Assembly (NCBI GenBank): GCA_020073165.1
Contig: JAIQFP010000013.1
Coordinates: forward strand, 1 to 64,000
Length of the DNA stretch: 64,000 nt
Source of the DNA: Terriglobia bacterium
GTDB taxonomy: Bacteria; Acidobacteriota; Terriglobia; Terriglobales; Acidobacteriaceae
Reading direction: 5' to 3'
In this document: piece after piece, positions 34,680 to 56,108 of the stretch
Numbering within the stretch: the stretch's first letter is position 1
How the letters are laid out: each line of letters begins with the position of its first letter
Program-made: the position numbers and the translations under genes
Notes under the pieces: model-generated
The model's input: only the letters and a program-made list of their open reading frames with translations
The model's database searches: none
What the model was told of the DNA's origin: nothing

Positions 34680-35684
34680 TCAGGACCCGGTCTTCTTGCC
34701 CGCCGAAACTGCGAAGCGCTGGGACTCGCCGGACATCGAGTTCGCGTCGGCGCCTCTGCCCGCTACACTGCTGACCACGTACAGCGGTCGCGACTTGATC
34801 TCCTCGTAGATTCTTCCCACGTATTCGCCTATGATCCCCAGGAACAGCAGGTTGATGCCGGAGAGAAAACTTATGCTCACCATCAGGCCCGTCCACCCAG
34901 GCACGGTCTGACGCAGCATGAATTTTGCGTAAACGGAATAGACAGCAACCAACAGTGCCAACAGGATGGCAGCCGCACCCACCATGGTGGCAGCCCGCAG
35001 CGGCACCACAGAGAATGCGAAGATTCCGTCAGCCGCCCCTTTGAACCGCTTCCACACGTTGTACTTGCTTTCACCCGCCAGCCGTTCGGCGCGTTCGATG
35101 GGAAGGCCGATCTGGCGGAACCCCACCCAGCTGCGCAATCCCCGCACGTAGCGGTGGTGCTCTTTCATCTGCCGCACTTCCTCGACCACGCGGCGCGACA
35201 TCAACCCGAAGTCTCCGGAATCGAGCGGGAGTTGAAAATCAGACAAGGCCGCCATAAGCCGGTAGAAGAACCAGAAACACGCGCGCAGCCAAAGCGGCTC
35301 CTTGCGCTTCACTCGTTGCACAAACACCACGTCATAGCCCTGTTGGAATTTCTCCACCAGCAGAGGGATGGTCTCGGGTGGGTCCTGCAGATCGCCGTCG
35401 ATGACGACAGTGGCATCGCCGGTCACGTAGTCGAGAGCGGCCGTGAGGGCCGTCTGGTGGCCGAAATTGCGCGACAGGGTCACGGCACAAATGCGCGGGT
35501 CCTCTCGCACCGCTTGCGCCAGTAAGACTGGCGTCCGGTCGCTGCTCCCGTCGTCCACGAACACGATTTCGTGCGGCCCGCCTGGCATCTCGTCCAGAAC
35601 CGTGCGCGTGCGTCGCAGCAACTCCGGCAGCACCTCCTCTTCGTTGTAGATGGGGATGGCGAGCGAAAGTCGAAACGGCCTCAT
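34680..35684 (-). CDS. GT2 polyprenyl-phosphate glycosyltransferase with two C-terminal membrane helices
   Basis: The 334-residue protein has an N-terminal GT-A domain: LSLAIPIYNEEEVLPELL, EIVFVDDGSSDRT, LSRNFGHQTAL and the metal-binding DGDLQDPPE. Two membrane helices follow near residues 230-255 and 268-290, and then GEYVGRIYEEIKSRPLYV. This is the GtrB/ArnC/DPM1-like type that moves a sugar from a nucleotide to polyprenyl phosphate on the cytosolic face. It would supply the GT-C enzyme at 36440 with lipid-linked sugar. AGGAG precedes the ATG. It is divergent from the methyltransferase gene. Confidence 0.92.
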   Translation of the reverse strand: MRPFRLSLAIPIYNEEEVLPELLRRTRTVLDEMPGGPHEIVFVDDGSSDRTPVLLAQAVREDPRICAVTLSRNFGHQTALTAALDYVTGDATVVIDGDLQDPPETIPLLVEKFQQGYDVVFVQRVKRKEPLWLRACFWFFYRLMAALSDFQLPLDSGDFGLMSRRVVEEVRQMKEHHRYVRGLRSWVGFRQIGLPIERAERLAGESKYNVWKRFKGAADGIFAFSVVPLRAATMVGAAAILLALLVAVYSVYAKFMLRQTVPGWTGLMVSISFLSGINLLFLGIIGEYVGRIYEEIKSRPLYVVSSVAGRGADANSMSGESQRFAVSAGKKTGS

Positions 35685-36439: not shown

Positions 36440-38320
36440 CTACGGCCGCCAGCGGACTTCAAACTTGCCGACGCGCGCCGAATTGGGGAAGCGCTCCCGC
36501 AGCGCCGCCTGGAGATCGCTCGCCATGGGCGGCGAAAACGCCGGCTGGGTCAGGATGGCGGCTACTTTCACCTGGTGTAAATCAAGCGTGGCCAGGATGC
36601 GCGCCGTGCGTCCTTCGGGCGGGTCGAAGAAATCGAAGAGCGTGCGTGTAGGATTTTGCTTACCGGAGAGAAAATAGACCTCGGGGCAATCCGGCCCGGC
36701 GTAGATGAAGCTGTTTCCGGCGGCATGTTCCTGCACTACCGGGATCAGTTGCTCGTACTGTTTGGCCTCCTCCGGGTCCACACGCAAGCCGCCTGCTCGC
36801 GCCAGGTTCAGGCGCTGCGTCTGGGGGTTGGGCTGGTAGTAGTTGCCCATGATGTAAATGAATCCTGGAGCAACCAGGAACACCACGAATGCCAGATAGA
36901 AGACGAGGACCGAACCGAGAAGGAATCGCGACGGCCGCTCGGCCGTGGAAAACAATGCGAGCAGCGCCAGTGCTACCAGGGGAGCGACGTAACAAAAATA
37001 GATGCCTACAGCGAACGGCAGTTGGATGAGACCGCAGACTGCCGCCACCGACATCAACAGGACAACCTCCTGCTGCCGCGAAATCGAAATCCCGGCGGCC
37101 TGCCGGCTGGCGAGAACGAAGACGGCCGCCAGTGCGGCCAGAGGCAGCAACAGAGCCAAGGGAGCCCAAGCCGCAGCAAAGATGCCGGGATGTGCCTTCG
37201 CGGTGATGAAGAGCACGACCAGCGTCACGGTAACAGCCAACCGCACACCCCACCAATGGCCACGCCCTCGATAGCCCGCAATCAGCAGCGTTACCAGCAC
37301 AAGCGTCCCCAGAATCTTGTTGGGTCCGAACCCCGGAGGACGGCGGGCGGCAAAATCGAACCGCCGGACGGGCAAGACAAATACTCCGTTGATGAAGGCA
37401 GCCATCGACGCGGAACGGATATACGGAATCAGGAAGGCGGCGACGGGCAATGCCGCTCCCATCAGAAAGGGCACAAGCATGCGGCCAAGAGTGAAGAATC
37501 GCTCGCGAGTGCCATCACCGCTTCTCCGCTCACGCCAGATGCATAGGCCGGCCATCGCAGCCCCCGGCACCACGAATTCCACCACCGAAACCATGGATAG
37601 ATTGTGGCGCACTACCATGAACAGCACGACCACGAAAGCCCCAAGCGCACCGACCGAGAAAAAAGAATAGAAGCTTCGTGTGCCTGGCCCAGGCGCGGGG
37701 TGTGCCAGTTCCTGCTCGCGGAAAACCAGGAAAAGCAAGACACCGGCGACGAAATACAGGCCGGAGAGCTTGAACAGAAAGGAGATTCCTCCGCAAAAAC
37801 CCGCCAGGAACAGCCACCAGGAGCGCTCACATTCCAGATAACGGAGCACGGCAAGTGTGCCAAACGTGGCGAAAAACAGGTTGTACCAGGAGGGCGCGGC
37901 TGAACTGTAGTTGGGAATGCTCCACGCGGCGGCCAGTAGCGTCACCGCGCCCGCCACAAGGGGTGACGTAAAGCGTGAGGCAATAGCGTAAACCGCGGGC
38001 ACCCAGGCCAGGAAGCAAAGGAGCAGCACCACTCGTGGCGCCAGCAGGTTCTCCCCGAACACCAGCATGGCAACGGCATTGAGGCAGCCCAATCCGCCGG
38101 TGTAGACATCGTCGAAATCGCGATGCGGCAGTTGGCCCGCGAGCACCCGCATGGCGCTTTGGCCAATCGTGCCTTCGTCGTGTGCGACCCAGCCGCGTTT
38201 GAGGAGATCGGCGCTGTAGATTCCGCAAATTGCCCACACCAACAGCAGCACTATCCACCAATGGCGGGGTGGGCGCACGCGGTCTGTGAACTGCTCAGCG
38301 GGTGGGGCTGTGACTGTCAT
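36440..38320 (-). CDS. Membrane GT-C-type glycosyltransferase (ArnT/PMT-like)
   Basis: The 626-residue protein is strongly hydrophobic with about 11-13 membrane helices. The first helix is followed by a periplasmic loop GWVAHDEGTIGQSAMRVLAGQ with an acidic residue pair (Asp-Glu), as in GT-C enzymes that use lipid-linked sugars. A DVYTG loop follows. The C-terminal soluble part holds YAGPDCPEVYFLSGKQNP. It likely transfers a sugar from polyprenyl phosphate to a surface molecule. It overlaps the upstream sulfatase-like gene by 26 bases and is the last gene of that operon. Confidence 0.82.
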   Translation of the reverse strand: MTVTAPPAEQFTDRVRPPRHWWIVLLLVWAICGIYSADLLKRGWVAHDEGTIGQSAMRVLAGQLPHRDFDDVYTGGLGCLNAVAMLVFGENLLAPRVVLLLCFLAWVPAVYAIASRFTSPLVAGAVTLLAAAWSIPNYSSAAPSWYNLFFATFGTLAVLRYLECERSWWLFLAGFCGGISFLFKLSGLYFVAGVLLFLVFREQELAHPAPGPGTRSFYSFFSVGALGAFVVVLFMVVRHNLSMVSVVEFVVPGAAMAGLCIWRERRSGDGTRERFFTLGRMLVPFLMGAALPVAAFLIPYIRSASMAAFINGVFVLPVRRFDFAARRPPGFGPNKILGTLVLVTLLIAGYRGRGHWWGVRLAVTVTLVVLFITAKAHPGIFAAAWAPLALLLPLAALAAVFVLASRQAAGISISRQQEVVLLMSVAAVCGLIQLPFAVGIYFCYVAPLVALALLALFSTAERPSRFLLGSVLVFYLAFVVFLVAPGFIYIMGNYYQPNPQTQRLNLARAGGLRVDPEEAKQYEQLIPVVQEHAAGNSFIYAGPDCPEVYFLSGKQNPTRTLFDFFDPPEGRTARILATLDLHQVKVAAILTQPAFSPPMASDLQAALRERFPNSARVGKFEVRWRP

Positions 38321-40283
38321 GGGAGTTGGAATGGCGTGCGCTCCACTCGAGATCCCGCCCTGGGCTCGAATCGCCTGCAAACGATCTTGTCAGCATGCCC
38401 TGCATGCGTTCAGCGAGCTGGCGTGCGACCTCCCGCCCCTCCGGAGTATCGACGACATTGTTTGATTCGCCGGGATCGCTGGCCCAATCATAGAGTTGCC
38501 CGCCCAGCTTTTCATGCACAATCAGGTGCCACTGGGGGGTGACCAGCGACTTCATCGAACCAGTGGTAGACGTGGGGATTTGATGGTTGCCCGAGCGGTC
38601 CCGCCCGTCTTCATACCGGTTCTGTGCCAGCTCAGAAAGAGTCGCCGGCCACTCCGGCGGCACGCCCCAGGCATCCCAAAGCCCGCTCAAGGAGGGCTCC
38701 GGGAAGCCGGATTGCGGCTGCGCGCCCACCAACTCCATCACAGTGCTGGCGATGGACGCATTCGTCACCGGGGTGGCAACGCGCAGCCCGGGAGCGATGT
38801 GCCCGGGATACCAGAAGATCAGCGGCACGTGGATCAACTCACGGTAGAGAGCGCGGCCATGGGTGGGCAATCCGTGCTGCCATAGCCCTTCGCCATGATC
38901 AGAAGTAATGACGACCAGCGTATTGTTCAGCAACCGGCGCTGTTGCAGCGCCTCCAGGAGTTGACCAAGGTTGTCGTCCACATACCGGATGTCATCGTCG
39001 TACAGGTCCATCTCGCTGCTCTGCGGCCAAGCGGGCCGGGGATACGATCTCGGGAGACCATAAGGGCCGTGCGCGTCGAAGTAGTTCAGGAACGCGAAAA
39101 ACGGACGCTGTGGCGTGTGGTCGATCCAGCGCACGACTTCCTGGTTCACCACCGAAGCGCGTTTACGCACACCCAGGGCGCCCGAGGAGTTCCCCCATCC
39201 TTCGGCATCGGGATCGAGCAGCGAGTCGAACCCGAGCCAGCGCAGCACACGCTTCGGTTTGCTTCGGTCGGTGCGCACCAGGTAGATGCGGGAAAACTCC
39301 CGGCCGAACAGAGTGCGCACAAACATGTCAGCCGGGGAATGGAAGTAGTCCTCAAAGTGAGCGAAGCCCCGGCTGAAACCCAGATTTCCGGAGAAGAAAA
39401 GGCGGTTGGCCGAGAATGCCGCCGTGCGATAGCCCTGGCGTTCCAGTTTCTCACCTAAGGTGGGAAAGCCGCCGAGATCAGGGGAGGATCCAAACGCCGC
39501 CATAGGCGGGATCCTTCCCAGACCATGCTCAAATTGGTAGCGGCCCGTTACCAGCGAAACGTGCGAGGGAAAACTCCAGGAAGAGGTCGAGATGGCGTTC
39601 TCGAACCGCACTCCTTGCTCGCCAAGGCGATCCATGTTCGGGCTGGTCGGACGCGCGTAGCCGTAGCCCGAAAGATGATCAGCCCGCAGCGTATCCACCA
39701 CGACCACAAGCACATTCGGCGCGCCGGGAGAGGCTGGGGGAAGCTCAGCCAGGGCTCGATGTTCGCGAAACCATATTCGGCCCTGAATTCCCGCGCCAGC
39801 CACCACCAAGACTGCCGCCAGCCAGGGCGCCGTGCCTTGGAAAAAGTACCGGCTCGCGGATTCATGTCGTCGAAACCAGCGGGTGACCACCGCCGCCGTG
39901 CCCAGGCCAAGCAAAAGGCAGCTCGCCGGGTACAGGCGGGCGGTTAAGGCCAACCAGTCATAAACCGTTGCCGTAGACAGAGCAAACACAACAAGGGACG
40001 CAGCAGACATTCGCGGAATAAATCGTCCCGCTAACCCGATCAGCAGCGTGAGTCCGGAGAACAGGATGGCATCCACGATCGCGGAAATCCAGATGATTTG
40101 CTCCGACACATGCAGTGTCGGACCCCATCGCGCCCAATTAATCCTCTGGAACAAAAGCAGCCCGACGCCTTCCACTATGCCGGCCACGATGCCGAACCAC
40201 AGGGCCATCATCACAAGACCGCCAACTGACCATCGCGTCGCGCGCGGGGCCGGGGTCACATCCGGCGACATAAGCTTCGTCAT
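38295..40283 (-). CDS. Membrane-anchored sulfatase-fold enzyme 1, without C-terminal extra domain
   Basis: The 662-residue product starts with five membrane helices (about residues 20-175) and continues with an alkaline-phosphatase/sulfatase-fold domain. The metal site is VVVDTLRADHLSGYG and TSDHGEGLWQHG. At the nucleophile position the sequence is SWSFPSHVSLVTG: Ser-x-Pro-Ser-His instead of Cys/Ser-x-Pro-x-Arg, so formylglycine formation is unlikely. The helix-plus-hydrolase architecture resembles LtaS and EptA-type transferases. It overlaps the next paralogue by ATGA and ends inside the GT-C gene. A phosphotransferase or phosphohydrolase acting on surface lipid or glycan is my inference. 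Confidence 0.85.
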   Translation of the reverse strand: MTKLMSPDVTPAPRATRWSVGGLVMMALWFGIVAGIVEGVGLLLFQRINWARWGPTLHVSEQIIWISAIVDAILFSGLTLLIGLAGRFIPRMSAASLVVFALSTATVYDWLALTARLYPASCLLLGLGTAAVVTRWFRRHESASRYFFQGTAPWLAAVLVVAGAGIQGRIWFREHRALAELPPASPGAPNVLVVVVDTLRADHLSGYGYARPTSPNMDRLGEQGVRFENAISTSSWSFPSHVSLVTGRYQFEHGLGRIPPMAAFGSSPDLGGFPTLGEKLERQGYRTAAFSANRLFFSGNLGFSRGFAHFEDYFHSPADMFVRTLFGREFSRIYLVRTDRSKPKRVLRWLGFDSLLDPDAEGWGNSSGALGVRKRASVVNQEVVRWIDHTPQRPFFAFLNYFDAHGPYGLPRSYPRPAWPQSSEMDLYDDDIRYVDDNLGQLLEALQQRRLLNNTLVVITSDHGEGLWQHGLPTHGRALYRELIHVPLIFWYPGHIAPGLRVATPVTNASIASTVMELVGAQPQSGFPEPSLSGLWDAWGVPPEWPATLSELAQNRYEDGRDRSGNHQIPTSTTGSMKSLVTPQWHLIVHEKLGGQLYDWASDPGESNNVVDTPEGREVARQLAERMQGMLTRSFAGDSSPGRDLEWSARHSNSHDSHSPTR

Positions 40284-42700
40284 TGGGCTGGGGCTCCGAT
40301 GGTGGGAGCTTCTTTCATTCCGCTCACCGCGATGTGGTAGCTCATATTCGTCCCACCCCGGCCATCCCAGTCTGACACCCGTACGTACATTTGTACGCGG
40401 GAGCCAGCATCGCCCGGAACCAGCAGCTCCAGCCGGGAATCTCGGTTCACGCCAGGGTTAATGTCGTCGTTCATACACACGTCGTCGAAGGCGTCGGGAG
40501 TCGGATCGGGTATCCCCGGTGCTTGTATGCGATCGTCGCCGGGATTACGACAGGTTTGCACCGGTTCGCCGCCGGCCGCCTCAATCGCAACCACCGGATC
40601 GAAGACGTTCGCCGCTGCCGGCTTTTGTGTCGACACTTCAACGGTCACGATACTCCCCGCCTCGGCTCGCAGCTGATAATAGTCATTGACCGGTTTTGGC
40701 GATGAAGGGTGAGCCTGCCCTGCGGGAGCGACTGGCACGCCATTGTGCAAGGCAACCGCGGATGCTCGCAGGCCAGCGGCCACATCCGGCAGAGATTGTG
40801 CCAGCAAGTCTTGCATATGCGAAGCCAGCTGGCCGGCAGTGGCCTGCCCCTGTGGCGTGAGGATCAGGTTCGTTGATTCGCCCGGGTCGTGAACCCAGTC
40901 GTAGAGCTGGTCTCCAAAATTCTTGTGCACGATGAGATGCCATTGCCCGCTAACCAAAGACTTCATCGAGCCTTTGCCAACCGAGGGCACAGAGTCAGCC
41001 GTGGCCCCATGGGGATTGGTGCTGAACTTCCTCTGGGCCAACTCTGAAAGCACATCCGGCCAGGTTACTGGTGGCTGGGAAGCGTCCCAGAGCCGGCTCA
41101 GACTCGATGCCGGGAACTGGGCCGCTGCTGCGTCGTCGCCCAGGATGCTGAGCAATGTGGCTGGCAGAGCGGAAATGGTGACTGGCATCGGCACCCGCAC
41201 TCCACCCGGAACGTGACCGGGATACCAGAAGATGAGCGGGACCTGAATCTCCCCCTTGTACAGCGCTCTCCCATGGGTGCGCAGCCCGTGCTGCCCCAGC
41301 TCTTCTCCGTGATCGGCGGTGATCACGACGATGGTGTTTCCAGCCAACCCGCGCCGCTCTAACTCAGTCATTAACTGGCTGACAGAATCATCCACGTACT
41401 TGACGCCGTCGTCGTACTTGTCAACCGGTGTACTTTGCGGCCAATCTGGTGTTGCGAACGATAGCGGGCCCCCATAGGGTTCGTGGACGTCGAAATAATT
41501 CAGGAAAGCAAAAAAAGGACGGTGGCGATCACGATCGATCCATTGGACAAGTTCCTGGTTCACCGCGGTCGAGCGTTTCCTAACGCCGGGGGAGCCGGCG
41601 GAACTCCCGAGCCCCTCATCATCGCGGTCCAGGATCGCCTCAAAGCCCAGCCAGCGCAGAGCGCGCCTGTACTTGCTTCGGTCGGTGCGCGCCAGGACGA
41701 TGCGCGAAAACTCCCGTCCATAGAGCGTGCGTACGAACATGTCGGGCACAGAATGAAAGTAGTCTTCGAAATGAGTGAAGCCCCGGCCGAAACCCAGGTC
41801 GTGCGAAAACCACGCCCGATTGGCGGAAAATGCTCCGGTGCGATAGCCACGCCGCTCCAAAGCCTCTCCCAGGGTAGGCTTTCCGCCCAAATCCGGTGCA
41901 CCAGAACCGAACATAGGGATCGGCACCATGTTCTCGATGCCGTGTTCAAACTGGTAGCGACCGGTCAGCAACGAAACGTGCGAGGGAAAACTCCACGAAC
42001 AGCTCGAAAACGCGTTCTTGAACAGCACGCCTTGCTGCGCGATTCGATCGATGTTCGGGCTGGTCGCACGCGCATAGCCATAGGAGGACAGGTGGTCAGC
42101 CCGCAACGTGTCCACCACGATCACCAGCACGTTGGGGGAGCCCCGCGCGGCGGCGGGCAACTTTGCGAGGGCTTGCTGCTCTGTCCACCAGCGGCCGCCC
42201 TGGATGCCAACCAGTGCCAACACTGCCGCGGCCGCCAGCCACGGCAGGGTTCTTCTCCAGAACTGCAAAACGCCGGCTTCCCGCCGCTTCATCCAGCGAG
42301 TGAATAGGGCTGCTACTCCGATCGCGAGCAGCAGGCAACTACTGTGATAGAGCCGCGCGGTCAGGGTAAGCCAGTCATAGGCAGCGGCCGCGGACAATAG
42401 GAAAACGGCAACGCGAACCGGCGGCACCCGAGGAATCCATCGCGAGACCGCACCTACGACGATAACTAGCCCGGAAAACAAGATAAGGTCCACGATCACC
42501 GAGATCCAGACGATCGGCTCCGAGACATGAAGCATCGGACCCCATCGCGCCCAATTAATCCTCTGGAACAGAAGCAGCCCAGTGCCCTCCACCATACCGG
42601 CCACGATGCCGAACCACGCGGCCATGACCACGAGGGAGCCCACCGACCCTCGGGTCGCGCGCGGGGCGGTAATCCCATCCTGCCACACAGGCGTCGTCAT
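40280..42700 (-). CDS. Membrane-anchored sulfatase-fold enzyme 2, with C-terminal beta domain
   Basis: This 806-residue paralogue has the same five N-terminal helices and catalytic domain: VIVVDTLRADHLSSYGYARAT, CSWSFPSHVSLLTG at the nucleophile position and VVITADHGEELGQHG. It is longer than enzyme 1 because of a C-terminal domain of about 135 residues with beta strands and an Asp-rich block (DPTPDAFDDVCMNDDINPG), probably calcium-binding, then VQMYVRVSDWDGRGG. That resembles pre-peptidase-C or carbohydrate-binding beta-sandwich domains. Both ends overlap neighbours by ATGA. The three proteins are clearly diverged from each other, so this is an old tandem duplication. Confidence 0.85.
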   Translation of the reverse strand: MTTPVWQDGITAPRATRGSVGSLVVMAAWFGIVAGMVEGTGLLLFQRINWARWGPMLHVSEPIVWISVIVDLILFSGLVIVVGAVSRWIPRVPPVRVAVFLLSAAAAYDWLTLTARLYHSSCLLLAIGVAALFTRWMKRREAGVLQFWRRTLPWLAAAAVLALVGIQGGRWWTEQQALAKLPAAARGSPNVLVIVVDTLRADHLSSYGYARATSPNIDRIAQQGVLFKNAFSSCSWSFPSHVSLLTGRYQFEHGIENMVPIPMFGSGAPDLGGKPTLGEALERRGYRTGAFSANRAWFSHDLGFGRGFTHFEDYFHSVPDMFVRTLYGREFSRIVLARTDRSKYRRALRWLGFEAILDRDDEGLGSSAGSPGVRKRSTAVNQELVQWIDRDRHRPFFAFLNYFDVHEPYGGPLSFATPDWPQSTPVDKYDDGVKYVDDSVSQLMTELERRGLAGNTIVVITADHGEELGQHGLRTHGRALYKGEIQVPLIFWYPGHVPGGVRVPMPVTISALPATLLSILGDDAAAAQFPASSLSRLWDASQPPVTWPDVLSELAQRKFSTNPHGATADSVPSVGKGSMKSLVSGQWHLIVHKNFGDQLYDWVHDPGESTNLILTPQGQATAGQLASHMQDLLAQSLPDVAAGLRASAVALHNGVPVAPAGQAHPSSPKPVNDYYQLRAEAGSIVTVEVSTQKPAAANVFDPVVAIEAAGGEPVQTCRNPGDDRIQAPGIPDPTPDAFDDVCMNDDINPGVNRDSRLELLVPGDAGSRVQMYVRVSDWDGRGGTNMSYHIAVSGMKEAPTIGAPAQ

Positions 42701-45129
42701 GGGGCGAGGGCTCCGTTTGCTGCAGCTTTCGCTCCGCTCATCCTGATGCTGTAGCTCATCTTTGTCCCACCCCGGCCATCCCAGTCCGACACCCGTACGT
42801 ACATTTGTACGCGCGAACCGGCATCAGCCGGAACCTGCAGTTCCAGCCGAGAATTTCGGTTCGCAGGATTGATGTCGTCGTTCATGCACACATCGTCGAA
42901 GGCGTCGGGAGTCGGATCGGGTGTCCCGGGCGGCGGTATGTGATCGTCGCTGGGATTCCGACAGCTTTGCAGAAGTTCACCGCTGGCTCCTTCAATCTCG
43001 ACCACCGGATCGAGGGTGTTCGCCAGCGCCGGCTTTTGTGCCGAAACTTCCACGGTCACGATGCTTCCCGCATCGGCTTGCATCTGATAGTAATCCCCAA
43101 CCGGGGTTCGCGATGAAGTGTGGCCCCGTTCGGCGGGAGCGATCGGCAGACCATCGTGCAGGGAAACCGCGGAGCGCCGCAGGCCGGCGGCCACATCCGG
43201 TGACGATTGCGACAGTAGGTCTCGTATCTTCGAACTCAGTTTGCCGGCAACGGCCTGCCCTTCTGGTGAGTGGATCAGGTTCGTCGATTCGCTCGCGTCG
43301 TGGGCCCAATCGTAGAGCTGATCGCCGAGACTCTTGTGCACGATGAGATGCCACTGCCCGCTCAAGAGCGATTTCATCGGACCCACCATGGACGTGGGCA
43401 CAATTTTCTCTGCCGCAACGTCTTCTTTGGCGGTGGCAGGGATCTGCGCAGCTTCCGCCAGGACATCCGGCCACTGCTGTGTTCCCTGGGGGTGCGTCCA
43501 AAGCGCAGTTAAAGCGGGAGCGGGAAACTGGTTCGCGCCTGCTTGATGCAGAACGTCCATCACCGTGGCAGGAATGGATGCATTGCTTATTGCAGTCGCC
43601 ACGCGCACTCCCGCGGGTATACGCCCCGGGTACCAGAACACAAGCGGGACATGGATCTGCTCGCGGTAGAGGGTTTCGCCGTGATAGGCAATGCCGTGCT
43701 GGCCCAGCGACTCGCCATGATCGGAGGTGACAATGACGAGTGTGTTCTGGCCCAAGCCACGCCTTTCTATGTCCGCCATCAACTGGCCAATGGCATCATC
43801 CACGTAGCGGACGCTGTCGTCATATTGATCGACGACGGTTTCCTGCGCCCACGCCGGCCTGCCGAAGGATACCGGACCACCGTAAGGATGGTGCACGTCA
43901 TAGTAATTCAGAAAGGCCAAGAAGGGCTGCGCTCGCTTGCCCCCATCGATCCACCTCAGGAGTTCCTGATTCACGGCGGTAGCGCGTTTGCGTACGCCCT
44001 GCGCTCCCCCCATCTGCACCGAGCCTTCGTCGTCGGTGTCGAGCAGCGAGTCGAATCCCAGGAAGCGCAAGAGGCGCTTTGGCTTGCTCTTGTTGCTGCG
44101 CGTCAAATAAATCCTCGCGAACTCTTTCCCGTAAAGGGTGCGCACCAACATGTCCGCAGGGGAATGGAAGTAGTCTTCAAAATGAGTGAAGCCCCGGTTG
44201 AAGCCCAGGTCGTGGGTGAAGTAGGTGCGATTGGCCGAAAATGCCGCGGTGCGGTACCCGCGCCGCTCCAGAGCTTCTCCCAACGTAGGATATCCGTTGA
44301 AGTTCAGACTGCTCGAATCGAAGACCCCCACAGCTGGAACACTCTCCATGCCGTGCTCGAACTGATAGGCGCCGGTCAGCAGCGAGACGTGCGAGGGATA
44401 ACTCCAGGAGCAAGTGGAAAGGGCGTTCTCAAACAACACGCCCTGCCGTGCCATGCGATCGACATTCGGGCTGGTCGGACGTGCGTAGCCGTAAGAAGAG
44501 AGATGATCGGCTCTGAGCGTGTCCACTACGATGACCAGAACGTTGGGCAATTCCGGCGCTGCCGGCGGCAGCTTAGCCAACGCTCTCTGCTCAGTCCACC
44601 AGCACCCTCCCTGAATTCCAATCACCGCCACCACCACCGCGGCCACCATCCCCGGGAGGGTCCGCCTCCAGAACTGCAAAGCCGCCGCCTCGCGCCTGCG
44701 GACCCACCGCGTCAAGACGGCCGCCACACCCAGCGCAAGCAGCAGCGAACTTCCGTGATAAAGCCTGGCAGTAACCGTAAGCCAGTCATACACCGCCAGT
44801 GTGGACAGGACAAACACCGCAGTTCGGATCGCCGGCAATCGCGGCAGCAGCCGCGCTGCCGCGCCAATGACGATCACCAGGAAACCAAAGAAGAGGAGGT
44901 CAACCACGACGGAGATCCAGACGATCGGGCCCGAAACGTGGAGCATCGCGCCCCATCTGGCCCAGTTGATCCTCTGGAACAAAAGCAGGCCGGTGCCCTC
45001 GACCAGACCGGTCAGAATGGCAAACCAGGCGGCGATCAGCAGCAGCGTGCCCATCGACCACCTCGGCGAAGAAGGCTGCACTACCAGAGGAGAATTCGGC
45101 CGTTGACCAGAGTTGGTGACGGTGTTCAT
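42697..45129 (-). CDS. Membrane-anchored sulfatase-fold enzyme 3, with C-terminal beta domain
   Basis: The first gene of the coupled operon. From the ATG at 45129 it encodes 810 residues (a TTG at 45141 is possible). The five hydrophobic segments end near residue 180, followed by VIVVDTLRADHLSSYG, CSWSYPSHVSLLTG and VIVTSDHGESLGQHG. The C-terminal domain has the same Asp-rich motif (DPTPDAFDDVCMNDDINP) and VRVSDWDGRGG as enzyme 2. The His replaces the Arg of sulfatases at the same position. The cysteine before SWSYPSH is shared with enzyme 2 and replaced by serine in enzyme 1. tRNA-Cys lies 75 bases upstream. Confidence 0.85.
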   Translation of the reverse strand: MNTVTNSGQRPNSPLVVQPSSPRWSMGTLLLIAAWFAILTGLVEGTGLLLFQRINWARWGAMLHVSGPIVWISVVVDLLFFGFLVIVIGAAARLLPRLPAIRTAVFVLSTLAVYDWLTVTARLYHGSSLLLALGVAAVLTRWVRRREAAALQFWRRTLPGMVAAVVVAVIGIQGGCWWTEQRALAKLPPAAPELPNVLVIVVDTLRADHLSSYGYARPTSPNVDRMARQGVLFENALSTCSWSYPSHVSLLTGAYQFEHGMESVPAVGVFDSSSLNFNGYPTLGEALERRGYRTAAFSANRTYFTHDLGFNRGFTHFEDYFHSPADMLVRTLYGKEFARIYLTRSNKSKPKRLLRFLGFDSLLDTDDEGSVQMGGAQGVRKRATAVNQELLRWIDGGKRAQPFLAFLNYYDVHHPYGGPVSFGRPAWAQETVVDQYDDSVRYVDDAIGQLMADIERRGLGQNTLVIVTSDHGESLGQHGIAYHGETLYREQIHVPLVFWYPGRIPAGVRVATAISNASIPATVMDVLHQAGANQFPAPALTALWTHPQGTQQWPDVLAEAAQIPATAKEDVAAEKIVPTSMVGPMKSLLSGQWHLIVHKSLGDQLYDWAHDASESTNLIHSPEGQAVAGKLSSKIRDLLSQSSPDVAAGLRRSAVSLHDGLPIAPAERGHTSSRTPVGDYYQMQADAGSIVTVEVSAQKPALANTLDPVVEIEGASGELLQSCRNPSDDHIPPPGTPDPTPDAFDDVCMNDDINPANRNSRLELQVPADAGSRVQMYVRVSDWDGRGGTKMSYSIRMSGAKAAANGALAP

Positions 45130-51685: not shown

Positions 51686-51782
51686 GGAAGCGCATGGGGT
51701 CCGGTGACTCTCCCGGTCTTCAAAACCGGCGGGCGGCATCACTGATGTCGCCGGTGCGTTCGACTCGCACACGCTTCCGCCA
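51686..51782 (+). tRNA. selC: Selenocysteine tRNA, anticodon TCA
   Basis: The sequence starts GGAAGCG and ends CGCTTCC plus G and CCA, like other bacterial selC genes. The acceptor stem is 8 pairs long, the last one mismatched. The anticodon stem CCGGT-ACCGG encloses CTTCAAA, so the anticodon is TCA, which reads UGA. A long variable arm (GGGCGGCATC to GATGTCGCC) follows, then a T-arm GTGCG-TTCGACT-CGCAC. The length (97 with CCA) is typical. No selA or selB is in the window. Confidence 0.93.
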
Positions 51783-54134: not shown

Positions 54135-56108
54135 ATGGGTTTACGGTTCCGCGTGATCTGGATTGCAGTGTTCCTGGCGTTCGTGCCGGCGGTTGCGCTG
54201 GGAGCCAGAGTCAACGTTATCCTGATCACCCTGGACACCACTCGTGCCGACCGCATGGGGTTTCTGGGCTCGAAACGCGGGCTGACGCCTAACCTTGACC
54301 TGCTGGCGGCAAGCTCTCTGGTTTTCACCCGGGCTTATTCCCAGGTTCCGCTTACCACCCCATCTCATGCCACGATTCTGACAGGCACTTACCCGCAATT
54401 TCACCAGGTGGTGGACGCGGGCCTGCCGCTGGGAGAAAACCTGCCCTACGCGCCCCAGATATTTCGAGAGGCAGGATACAAGACCGCTGCCTTCGTGGGG
54501 TCGGTGATTCTTGATCCCAAGAACGGCGGCGCCCCTGGATTCGACCGGGGATTCGATCTGTACGATGCCGGCTTCCACTCGCGCGCACCCGGCGAGGACC
54601 GCTACCAAAGCTTGAGTCGCAGAGGAACTGAGGTCGTCGAGCGCGCCCTGGCCTGGATCAAGGACAACAACCACGCTCCGTTTTTTCTTTGGATTCATCT
54701 CTACGACCCGCACGCGCCGTACGAGCCGCCCGAACCGTTCGCGACCCGCTTTCGCGAGGCCGCGTACGACGGTGAGATTGCTTACTCCGATTTTGCCCTC
54801 GGCAAGCTCTTCGACCAGTTGCGGCAGGCAAAGCTCTACGACGAATCCGTCATTGCCTTCATGTCTGACCATGGCGAGGCCCTTGGCGAGCACGGTGAAC
54901 GCGGCCATGGGATTTTCCTCTACGACCCGACGATCCATGTGCCTCTGGTGATCAAGCTGCCGAAGCCGCCTTCCGCGGGCTCGCGAGTCGATACGCGAGT
55001 GGAATTGGTTGATGTGCTCCCCACCATCCTGGACGCCGTCGGCATTCCCACGCCGAAGGCGGTGCAAGGTCGTTCGCTTGTCCCGGTGTTCCGCCAGGCA
55101 TCGGATACAGCGAGGTCGAGAGAGTCGGCCGATCGGGCCGCATATTCTGAAAGCGATTATCCACAGCGGGCCTTCGGGTGGAGCCCCCTGCGCTCGCTGC
55201 GCACCGGAAAATTCCTGTTTGTGGATGCTCCCCGGCCGGAACTCTATGACCAATCCAGAGACCCCGCGGCCGATCACAACCTGGCTCCGACTGCATCTGC
55301 CGTTAGCGACACCCTCGCCGCTCAACTTGCCAGGTTCCGGGAGCAGACCAGCAGGGCCGCTACTGCGCCGCCAGCTAGACTTGATCCAGACCAGCAAGCC
55401 AAACTTCAGGCCCTGGGATACGCAGCTTCAGGCGGTAGCTCATCGGCATCGCAAGCGAAAGGGGCCGACCCGAAAGACAGAATCTCACTCGCGAATGAGA
55501 TGACCGAAGTGTATTTCGCAATGGAGGAGTTCCATAACCAGGAAGCCATTGATAAGGCCGAGGATGTGATTGCCAAGGACCCCACCATCGCCGGCGCCTA
55601 CGGAGCCCTGGGCGAAGCTTGGATGCACATGGGCAGATTCAAGGAAGCATTGCCCGCGTTGCGCAAAGCGGCCGAGCTACAGCCGGATTCTGCCTATGCC
55701 CGCTATCAATTGGGAACTGGGCTGATCGAAACTGGCGACATGGCATCGGCGGCAACAGAGTTGGAAAAGGCAAACGCCGTTTCGCCGCAGTCGCCCCAGG
55801 TCTTGTATGCGCTGGCGTTTGCGTATGTCCAAACCGACCGTGCAGCGCAGGCAAAGAAACTGCTCGAAACCGTCCGTGAACTCAAACCCAAATATTACGA
55901 CGCTGATCTCTTGCTCGGCTTCATCTTGCTCGAGGAAAAGAATCCGGCGGCCGCTCTTCCTGTCTTGAAAGAAGCGACGGAGCTCCAACCGAACTCCGTT
56001 CAGCCACACGATTATCTTGCTGACGTCTACTCTGCATTAGGAGACCAGCCATCGGCCGACCGGGAACGTGCCCTTGCCGCCAAGCTCAAAGAGTCCGGGA
56101 ATCCGTAA
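54135..56108 (+). CDS. Sulfatase-fold hydrolase fused to TPR repeats, exported
   Basis: The 657-residue product begins with a signal peptide (VFLAFVPAVALGA). The sulfatase-fold domain (about residues 25-400) has VILITLDTTRADRMGFLG, then LTTPSHATILTG at the nucleophile position and AFMSDHGEALGEHG. Here the order is Thr-x-Pro-Ser-His, so like the operon at 38295-45129 it lacks the formylglycine motif. From about residue 450, repeats such as AEDVIAKDPTIAGAYGALGEAWMHMGRFKEALPALRKAA are tetratricopeptide units, probably for protein contacts. It is a single gene. Confidence 0.88.
   Translation: MGLRFRVIWIAVFLAFVPAVALGARVNVILITLDTTRADRMGFLGSKRGLTPNLDLLAASSLVFTRAYSQVPLTTPSHATILTGTYPQFHQVVDAGLPLGENLPYAPQIFREAGYKTAAFVGSVILDPKNGGAPGFDRGFDLYDAGFHSRAPGEDRYQSLSRRGTEVVERALAWIKDNNHAPFFLWIHLYDPHAPYEPPEPFATRFREAAYDGEIAYSDFALGKLFDQLRQAKLYDESVIAFMSDHGEALGEHGERGHGIFLYDPTIHVPLVIKLPKPPSAGSRVDTRVELVDVLPTILDAVGIPTPKAVQGRSLVPVFRQASDTARSRESADRAAYSESDYPQRAFGWSPLRSLRTGKFLFVDAPRPELYDQSRDPAADHNLAPTASAVSDTLAAQLARFREQTSRAATAPPARLDPDQQAKLQALGYAASGGSSSASQAKGADPKDRISLANEMTEVYFAMEEFHNQEAIDKAEDVIAKDPTIAGAYGALGEAWMHMGRFKEALPALRKAAELQPDSAYARYQLGTGLIETGDMASAATELEKANAVSPQSPQVLYALAFAYVQTDRAAQAKKLLETVRELKPKYYDADLLLGFILLEEKNPAAALPVLKEATELQPNSVQPHDYLADVYSALGDQPSADRERALAAKLKESGNP

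Follow-up and report, generated by a model that had tools for sequence, protein, structure and literature searches.

EptA and MCR, together with LtaS, LtaP and OpgB, combine five N-terminal helices and a catalytic domain lying outside with a hydroxyl nucleophile, a D-H block and a His at the place where the sulfatase homologue YidJ has Lys. The formylglycine sulfatases (arylsulfatase, choline sulfatase) and the phosphonate monoester hydrolases have the sulfatase fold with a D-H-G-E block, a His corresponding to H413 in the numbering used below and a C-terminal subdomain, with a C/S-x-P-x-R motif in the sulfatases. The YejM/LapC/PbgA proteins consist of five helices and a sulfatase-like periplasmic domain, and we know of no link between them and GT-C glycosyltransferases. 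In eukaryotes, the GPI ethanolamine-phosphate transferases PIG-N, PIG-O and PIG-G work with the GT-C mannosyltransferases PIG-M, PIG-V and PIG-B; here an alkaline-phosphatase-fold transferase acts on a GT-C-made glycan, and any likeness to the locus described below is by analogy only. In Haloferax volcanii, a glycan cluster encodes Agl7, which is required to modify a lipid-linked sugar; when Agl7 is lost, the lipid-linked tetrasaccharide is non-sulfated, according to the part of PMC3871713 available. Its likeness to the present proteins is one of role and context, and the available portions of PMC12852389, PMC10716476 and PMC10869688 held nothing on its fold. Among the publications listed by a literature search, none was recognised as treating the enzyme family described here.

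The window, that is, the whole stretch of 64,000 nucleotides of acidobacterial DNA that was analysed, contains three tandem genes (A, B and C) for sulfatase-fold membrane proteins, followed by a gene for a GT-C glycosyltransferase (D). The features of this region are as follows.

42697-45129, minus strand: gene A, sulfatase-fold protein with five predicted membrane helices (810 aa, ATG at 45129)
44575-45054, minus strand: membrane part of A, helices 26-185, as placed by the AlphaFold model
44389-44409, minus strand: motif S-W-S-Y-P-S-H of A, with the proposed nucleophile Ser243 and His247
43681-43722, minus strand: D470-H471-G-E ... H478 ... H483 of A, proposed metal ligands together with the His that replaces the Lys of YidJ
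42700-43107, minus strand: extra C-terminal domain of A, acidic, with two invariant Cys
40280-42700, minus strand: gene B, paralogue (806 aa, start within the stop of A, ATGA)
41978-41998, minus strand: motif S-W-S-F-P-S-H of B
40283-40696, minus strand: extra C-terminal domain of B, the same as in A
38295-40283, minus strand: gene C, paralogue (662 aa, start within the stop of B, ATGA)
39561-39581, minus strand: motif S-W-S-F-P-S-H of C
36440-38320, minus strand: gene D, GT-C glycosyltransferase of the PMT_2 type (626 aa, ATG at 38320)
34680-35684, minus strand: possible partner, a GT2 glycosyltransferase similar to PgfS and ArnC (under the cut-off in each case) and thus of the polyprenyl-phosphate sugar type

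The first-pass annotation had described three tandem paralogues with ATGA overlaps and a GT-C gene at the end of the operon, and both descriptions agree with the open reading frames located here. The A/B junction (42697-42700) and the B/C junction (40280-40283) read 'tcat' on the plus strand, which is ATGA on the minus strand, and D, which lies just beyond the coordinates given in that annotation, overlaps C by 26 bases. The product of D was recognised as a GT-C protein both by its PMT_2 score (29.2 bits, cut-off 26.1) and by its 11 hydrophobic stretches. Identity is 57% between C and A, 60% between C and B and 65% between A and B. In a genome of the same genus (G001, locus L049, 7573-12491), two copies, B' and then A', are followed by a GT-C gene, with A' 80%, B' 78% and the adjoining ortholog of D 68% identical to their counterparts in the window. 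All four genes are under purifying selection, with dN/dS of 0.16 for A/A', 0.19 for B/B', 0.17 for D and its ortholog and 0.16-0.22 among A, B and C, the silent sites of A/C and B/C being near saturation. Genes for tRNA-Cys and tRNA-Gly lie upstream of the array. The GT2 gene was dropped as a core part of the locus, no match to it being found in 20 kb of the same-genus locus. Matches to PHROGs were of unknown function only. It should also be noted that a selenocysteine tRNA gene is present in the window at 51686-51782 (plus strand) and that the same-genus genome has one close to the corresponding locus.

Against the Pfam models, A, B and C scored 163-170 bits with Sulfatase (cut-off 25) and 60-72 bits with type I phosphodiesterase (cut-off 23), and the sulfatase C-terminal subdomain was detected in C (38.6 bits, cut-off 29.3), with A and B below the cut-off. 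Scores were 43.6-58.2 bits with the phosphoethanolamine transferase model (cut-off 500) and 17.8-25.3 bits with the LtaS model (cut-off 970), and the NCBIfam EptA, LtaS and sulfatase models among the matches listed were all far under their cut-offs. A Foldseek search gave a phosphonate monoester hydrolase as the first match, with most structural matches spanning residues 192-713 of A. When the best 1000 Foldseek chains were re-examined with VIA-align, Z scores reached 33.8 for sulfatases, compared with 30.4 for LtaP (4uop) and 30.7 for an alkaline-phosphatase superfamily protein of Vibrio (3lxq). As modelled, the catalytic fold is closer to that of sulfatases than to that of LtaS-type proteins. 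Membership of the EptA and LtaS families, whose architecture had originally been seen as a match, is not borne out by the sequence models, which are far below cut-off, and the fold is most like that of sulfatases. A, B and C differ from EptA/MCR and LtaS/LtaP/OpgB in this sulfatase-type fold, in its C-terminal subdomain and in the P-S-H motif, and their nucleophile region aligns poorly with these proteins.

An extra C-terminal domain of approximately 135 aa, not mentioned in the initial reading, is found in A and B and is absent from C. It is also carried by the orthologs of A and B and by the protein of locus L041. A Pfam scan of a slightly longer piece of A (42697-43230) gave no match up to an E value of 0.1.

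The AlphaFold model, which was built for A on 17 aligned sequences with a mean pLDDT of 65.5, placed five helices (26-54, 69-94, 100-118, 125-145 and 147-185) before the catalytic domain. Two or three of these five helices only were detected by a Kyte-Doolittle scan of A, B and C, and the N-terminal membrane part could be aligned across all 17 sequences of the family alignment. In 20 family members, K and R made up 29% of loop 2 and 25% of loop 4, but 10% of loop 1 and 16% of loop 3. These charges fit a predicted topology with the N-terminus inside and the catalytic domain outside, the N-terminal tail (10%) being uninformative. The five N-terminal helices and the membrane layout reminiscent of EptA and LtaS, both suggested at the outset, are thus reproduced in prediction.

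At the proposed active site, the candidate metal and catalytic residues D203, D411, H413, D470, H471, H478 and H483 (numbering of A) were identical in all 20 core sequences, in keeping with the metal ligands of the sulfatase/alkaline-phosphatase fold named in the first-pass annotation, and only D411 varied in the 14 wider relatives (12 D, 2 E). The motif had been read as S-(F/Y)-P-S-H with His in place of the sulfatase Arg, and it was found as S-Y-P-S-H in A and as S-F-P-S-H in B and C; His occupies the Arg place in 34 of 34 relatives (core and wider), as it does the place of H483. Of the 20 core sequences, 16 have Ser and four have Thr at position 243, and all 14 wider five-helix relatives have Thr, so that Thr occurs in 18 of the 34; the three outgroup sequences from the same genome have Thr as well.

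For comparison, the E. coli K-12 proteins EptA, OpgB, AslA, YejM and YidJ were aligned with the family. H483 was aligned to the His of EptA 'YLHGLPYA' and to the Lys of YidJ, with AslA showing a gap in one alignment and His in the other. The spacing between residues 471 and 483 of A equals that between His453 and His465 of EptA, the EptA residues named in the part of PMC7576196 available including Thr280, His383, His453 and His465. H413 does not discriminate, since His is found at this place in EptA, YidJ and AslA alike. Candidates for the Ser/Thr, Asp, Asp and His of the EptA/LtaS-type metal set are present, but the nucleophile region is misaligned with EptA, whose Thr fell one column off S243 in one alignment and was placed differently in another, and for OpgB this region remained unaligned. 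In contrast to YejM, from which both are absent in the alignment, A, B and C keep the D-H-G block and H413. From formylglycine sulfatases they differ in having no C/S-x-P-x-R motif, in allowing Thr, in the change of the YidJ Lys to His and in possessing a membrane part. The Arg form of the sulfatase motif used here was taken from the E. coli sequences, unlike the version C/S-X-P-X-A-X4-T-G printed in the portion of PMC3920027 available, which also describes known maturation systems as acting on Cys or Ser. Given the interchange of Ser and Thr, the prevalence of Thr outside the core and the action of the known maturation systems on Cys or Ser, residue 243 would most simply be a hydroxyl nucleophile, and formylglycine at Ser243 is unlikely. 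The early argument against formylglycine is supported by the Ser/Thr alternation, by the His for Arg throughout the 34 relatives and by the His replacing the Lys of YidJ. As H413 and the EptA, OpgB, AslA and haloarchaeal alignments each have their limits, the Ser/Thr alternation is the strongest single argument.

The genome encodes 16 Pfam-Sulfatase proteins, for which there are 17 matches, one frame containing two. A [S/T]-x-x-S-H motif could be read in 11 of them, A, B and C included, and Arg in one, with four unassigned. With a presence in 11 of 16, the motif is little out of the ordinary in this genome and is part of a broad class. Of the 13 other sulfatase-fold proteins, six have one hydrophobic helix, five have none and two have seven or nine, and the motif also occurs in proteins of this genome that do not have five helices; several of the 13 end in TPR-like repeats, as judged by eye. 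Within the broad motif class, the branch of A, B and C is distinguished by its five-helix anchor and by its neighbours. A further sulfatase-fold gene of the window (54135-56108, plus strand) encodes the motif T-T-P-S-H, with TPR-type matches below cut-off in the C-terminal half of the protein. The Arg-bearing motif, S-S-P-T-R with Ser and not Cys in first position, belongs to the protein of L001 (G000:C18:67776-69014), for which a serine-acting maturation enzyme might be needed. Three matches to PF03781, a broad family of the FGE type, were found in the genome.

In 12 of the 17 core loci (the window, L049, L051, L053, L054, L055, L056, L057, L058, L092, L044/L093 and L094) the array or single gene directly adjoins a GT-C gene, which strengthens the link with glycosyltransferases made originally from the window. 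PMT_2 was over its cut-off in D, in the L044 partner and in the other partners scanned except that of L049 (23.4 against 26.1 bits), and the partners at L092 and L094 were assigned through their identity (72% and 54%, respectively) to scanned partners. GT-C genes were not seen at L050, L052, L047/L095, L096 and L107, with Pfam applied to some of the neighbours there and with L096 and L107 lying near contig ends. Three groups of partners can be told apart: D and its ortholog, on the same strand as the enzyme genes; those of L051, L053, L055 and L058, which are divergent; and those of L054, L056, L057, L044, L092 and L094, also divergent. In a BLAST comparison of a set of ten of these proteins, D and its ortholog had no significant match to the second and third groups, and the best match between these two groups was local (34% over 100 residues, E 3e-6). 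Since the neighbouring enzymes are still 45-60% identical and the GT-C groups dissimilar, it would appear that gain or exchange of the partner took place about three times; rapid divergence from a single ancient GT-C gene is a possible alternative. The genome of the window has 11 PMT_2 matches in all, none less than 5 kb from the matched stretch of any of the 13 other sulfatase-fold proteins (the closest is at 5.5 kb). PF01663 phosphodiesterase genes occur as a pair beside L050, L057 and L059 and, by similarity, beside L130. At L130 (4859-9991), in a distant acidobacterial genome, the two type I phosphodiesterase-like genes and the gene of the five-helix sulfatase-fold protein form an end-to-end overlapping series.

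The distribution of the family was examined with genome counts that include the genome of the window itself. A match was obtained in 11 of the 150 near genomes searched at 1e-80, with a wider relative as one of the 11, in 20 of 398 genomes of the same family at 1e-60 (five via wider relatives only) and in 2 of 396 across the phylum, and the wider profile gave a match in 12 of 297 at 1e-80. Twelve of the loci lie on named public contigs, all from acidobacterial metagenome-assembled genomes. Three genes in a row occur only in the window among the 17 core loci; L053, like the same-genus locus, has two copies and the remaining core loci have one each. A separate three-gene array of wider relatives is present at L059. 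In a tree of 37 sequences, from which L107 (gene in two frames) and L093 and L095 (on the contigs already represented by L044 and L047) were omitted, A, B, C, A', B' and L096 were grouped with an SH-aLRT of 98. The idea of a three-gene system, raised in the first-pass annotation, is unsupported, and a conserved system of this kind was rejected, with the order being local to the window among the 17 core loci, the pair swapped in the same genus and the split between copies lying inside the six-sequence clade. L096 is from another genus and joins A on a long branch, and the duplications of A, B and C may therefore predate the genus.

A base-by-base comparison of the copies gave a different picture along their length. 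Over the opening few dozen codons, A' and B' tend to resemble the gene at the same array position; in one stretch of 120 columns the start of B' is 81% identical to A against 75% to B, and the very start of A' leans to C over a few bases. In the catalytic middle the A-like and B-like lineages are kept apart. From approximately column 1920 onwards A and B are as alike within a genome as they are with their orthologs, and more so in the last two stretches. The sequences suggest recombination between copies at the ends with separate function retained in the middle.

Glycan-related genes were also found near several wider relatives: a UDP-glucose dehydrogenase near L097, WecG and a polysaccharide deacetylase near L099, a sugar transferase and a GT2 near L102, PMT_2 and GT87 genes near L129, an O-antigen ligase and a flippase near L132 and an O-antigen ligase near L134. 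Neighbours of this type were not seen, by eye or by BLAST, at L098, L100, L103, L104, L105, L106 and L131, among others. Six of the 11 other genomes matched by the wider profile were inspected, and these had glycan or GT-C genes near L129, L132 and L134, the phosphodiesterase pair at L130, nothing clear at L131 and, at L133, a gene that the ORF caller did not recover. Four haloarchaeal plasmid loci (L113, L114, L115 and L116), hand-picked from the first 20 of 37 records, lie among glycosyltransferase, flippase or epimerase genes, and two of these four have two or three sulfatase-like genes close together. The label 'sulfatase' or 'sulfatase-like hydrolase/transferase' is carried by 18 of 20 plasmid entries among the matches listed, the two other records being without annotation. 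Seven haloarchaeal proteins that were aligned have Thr in the nucleophile column; a single one of them shows the His of P-S-H, and two have Lys in the H483 column. The sulfatase-like genes of the four loci lack the sulfatase Arg.

It is tentatively proposed, with slightly less than even confidence, that A, B and C are periplasm-facing transferases of phospho-groups acting on a glycan or lipid-linked sugar. They would be inner-membrane enzymes of five N-terminal helices and a periplasmic sulfatase-fold domain, in which a metal-activated Ser (Thr in many relatives) would attack a phosphodiester, most simply a phospholipid head group. A covalent phospho-enzyme would form, and a hydroxyl of a sugar, whether in a polysaccharide, a glycolipid or a lipid-linked glycan, would receive the phospho-group, the acceptor presumably being the glycan that the neighbouring GT-C enzyme helps to build. 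The three copies may serve three positions or acceptors. The hydroxyl nucleophile, the conserved candidate ligands, the topology signal and the GT-C pairing are supported by the data; from these we infer a phosphodiester substrate, transfer over hydrolysis, a glycan acceptor and a division of labour. In favour of phospho-transfer are the Ser/Thr alternation, the His in place of Arg, the EptA-like His483 and its spacing from H471, the GT-C neighbours (the 13 other sulfatase-fold proteins of the genome having no PMT_2 match within 5 kb) and the glycan genes near some wider relatives and at the four haloarchaeal loci. Counting against it are the fold nearest to sulfatases, the sulfatase C-terminal subdomain in C, the family models under cut-off, the His of AslA in the H483 column in one alignment, the Lys there in two haloarchaeal relatives, the occurrence of the motif in sulfatase-fold proteins without five helices and the five of 17 core loci where no GT-C was seen, and the proposal was graded lower because H413 is uninformative and S243 is not clearly matched by the Thr of EptA. 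Of the earlier suggestion of surface-modifying enzymes, the connection with glycosyltransferases stands, and the choice among phosphoglycerol, phosphoethanolamine or another donor cannot be made from sequence.

The main rival is that these proteins are periplasmic hydrolases, phosphodiesterases or phosphatases, trimming or recycling phosphorylated glycans or lipids. The type I phosphodiesterase scores, the PF01663 gene pairs at four loci (one by similarity) and the first Foldseek match all speak for hydrolysis, which would also be compatible with a membrane part that aligns in all 17 sequences and a recurring partner of the biosynthetic GT-C kind. These two observations fit hydrolysis less readily, the layout being one known from LtaS and EptA, and the hydrolase explanation is considered doubtful. 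Less probable still is the movement of sulfate by sulfatase-fold membrane sulfotransferases during glycan assembly, since the change from Lys to His follows EptA and we know of no periplasmic sulfate donor for such enzymes. The sulfatase fold and the haloarchaeal relatives among glycan genes are in keeping with it, and the requirement for Agl7 in the formation of a sulfated lipid-linked sugar in Haloferax (PMC3871713, in the part available) is a lead only.

Five helices with a sulfatase-like domain would equally suit regulators of the YejM/LapC kind that act by binding and not by turnover, E. coli LapC being annotated as a lipopolysaccharide signal transducer. This is improbable to a somewhat greater degree, considering that all 20 core sequences retain the candidate nucleophile and ligands (YejM having no D-H-G block in the alignment) and that one operon contains three diverged copies; phosphatase activity has been reported for YejM in the part of PMC7576196 available. 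A pseudoenzyme is likewise unlikely, the candidate active-site residues being kept. Ordinary formylglycine sulfatases with a variant motif are the most improbable of these explanations; the fold and the three PF03781 matches would suit them, but Ser alternates with Thr at 243, with Thr in more than half of the 34 relatives, and His stands for Arg in every one.

A, B and C belong to the known alkaline-phosphatase/sulfatase superfamily, and the five-helix anchor and the GT-C pairing are a variant within it. A broader possibility, rather unlikely on present evidence, is that they represent a new bacterial branch in which a sulfatase fold with Ser/Thr-nucleophile chemistry has been paired with three groups of GT-C enzymes, capping a GT-C sugar with a phospho-group in a GPI-like manner, with local expansion leading to several specificities. 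Such proteins might be recognisable by [S/T]-x-P-x-H combined with His for Lys, a combination absent from most of the seven aligned haloarchaeal relatives. If the branch does consist of glycan- or lipid-modifying transferases, the sulfatase counts of acidobacteria would be too high and a class of surface-modifying enzymes would be misnamed.
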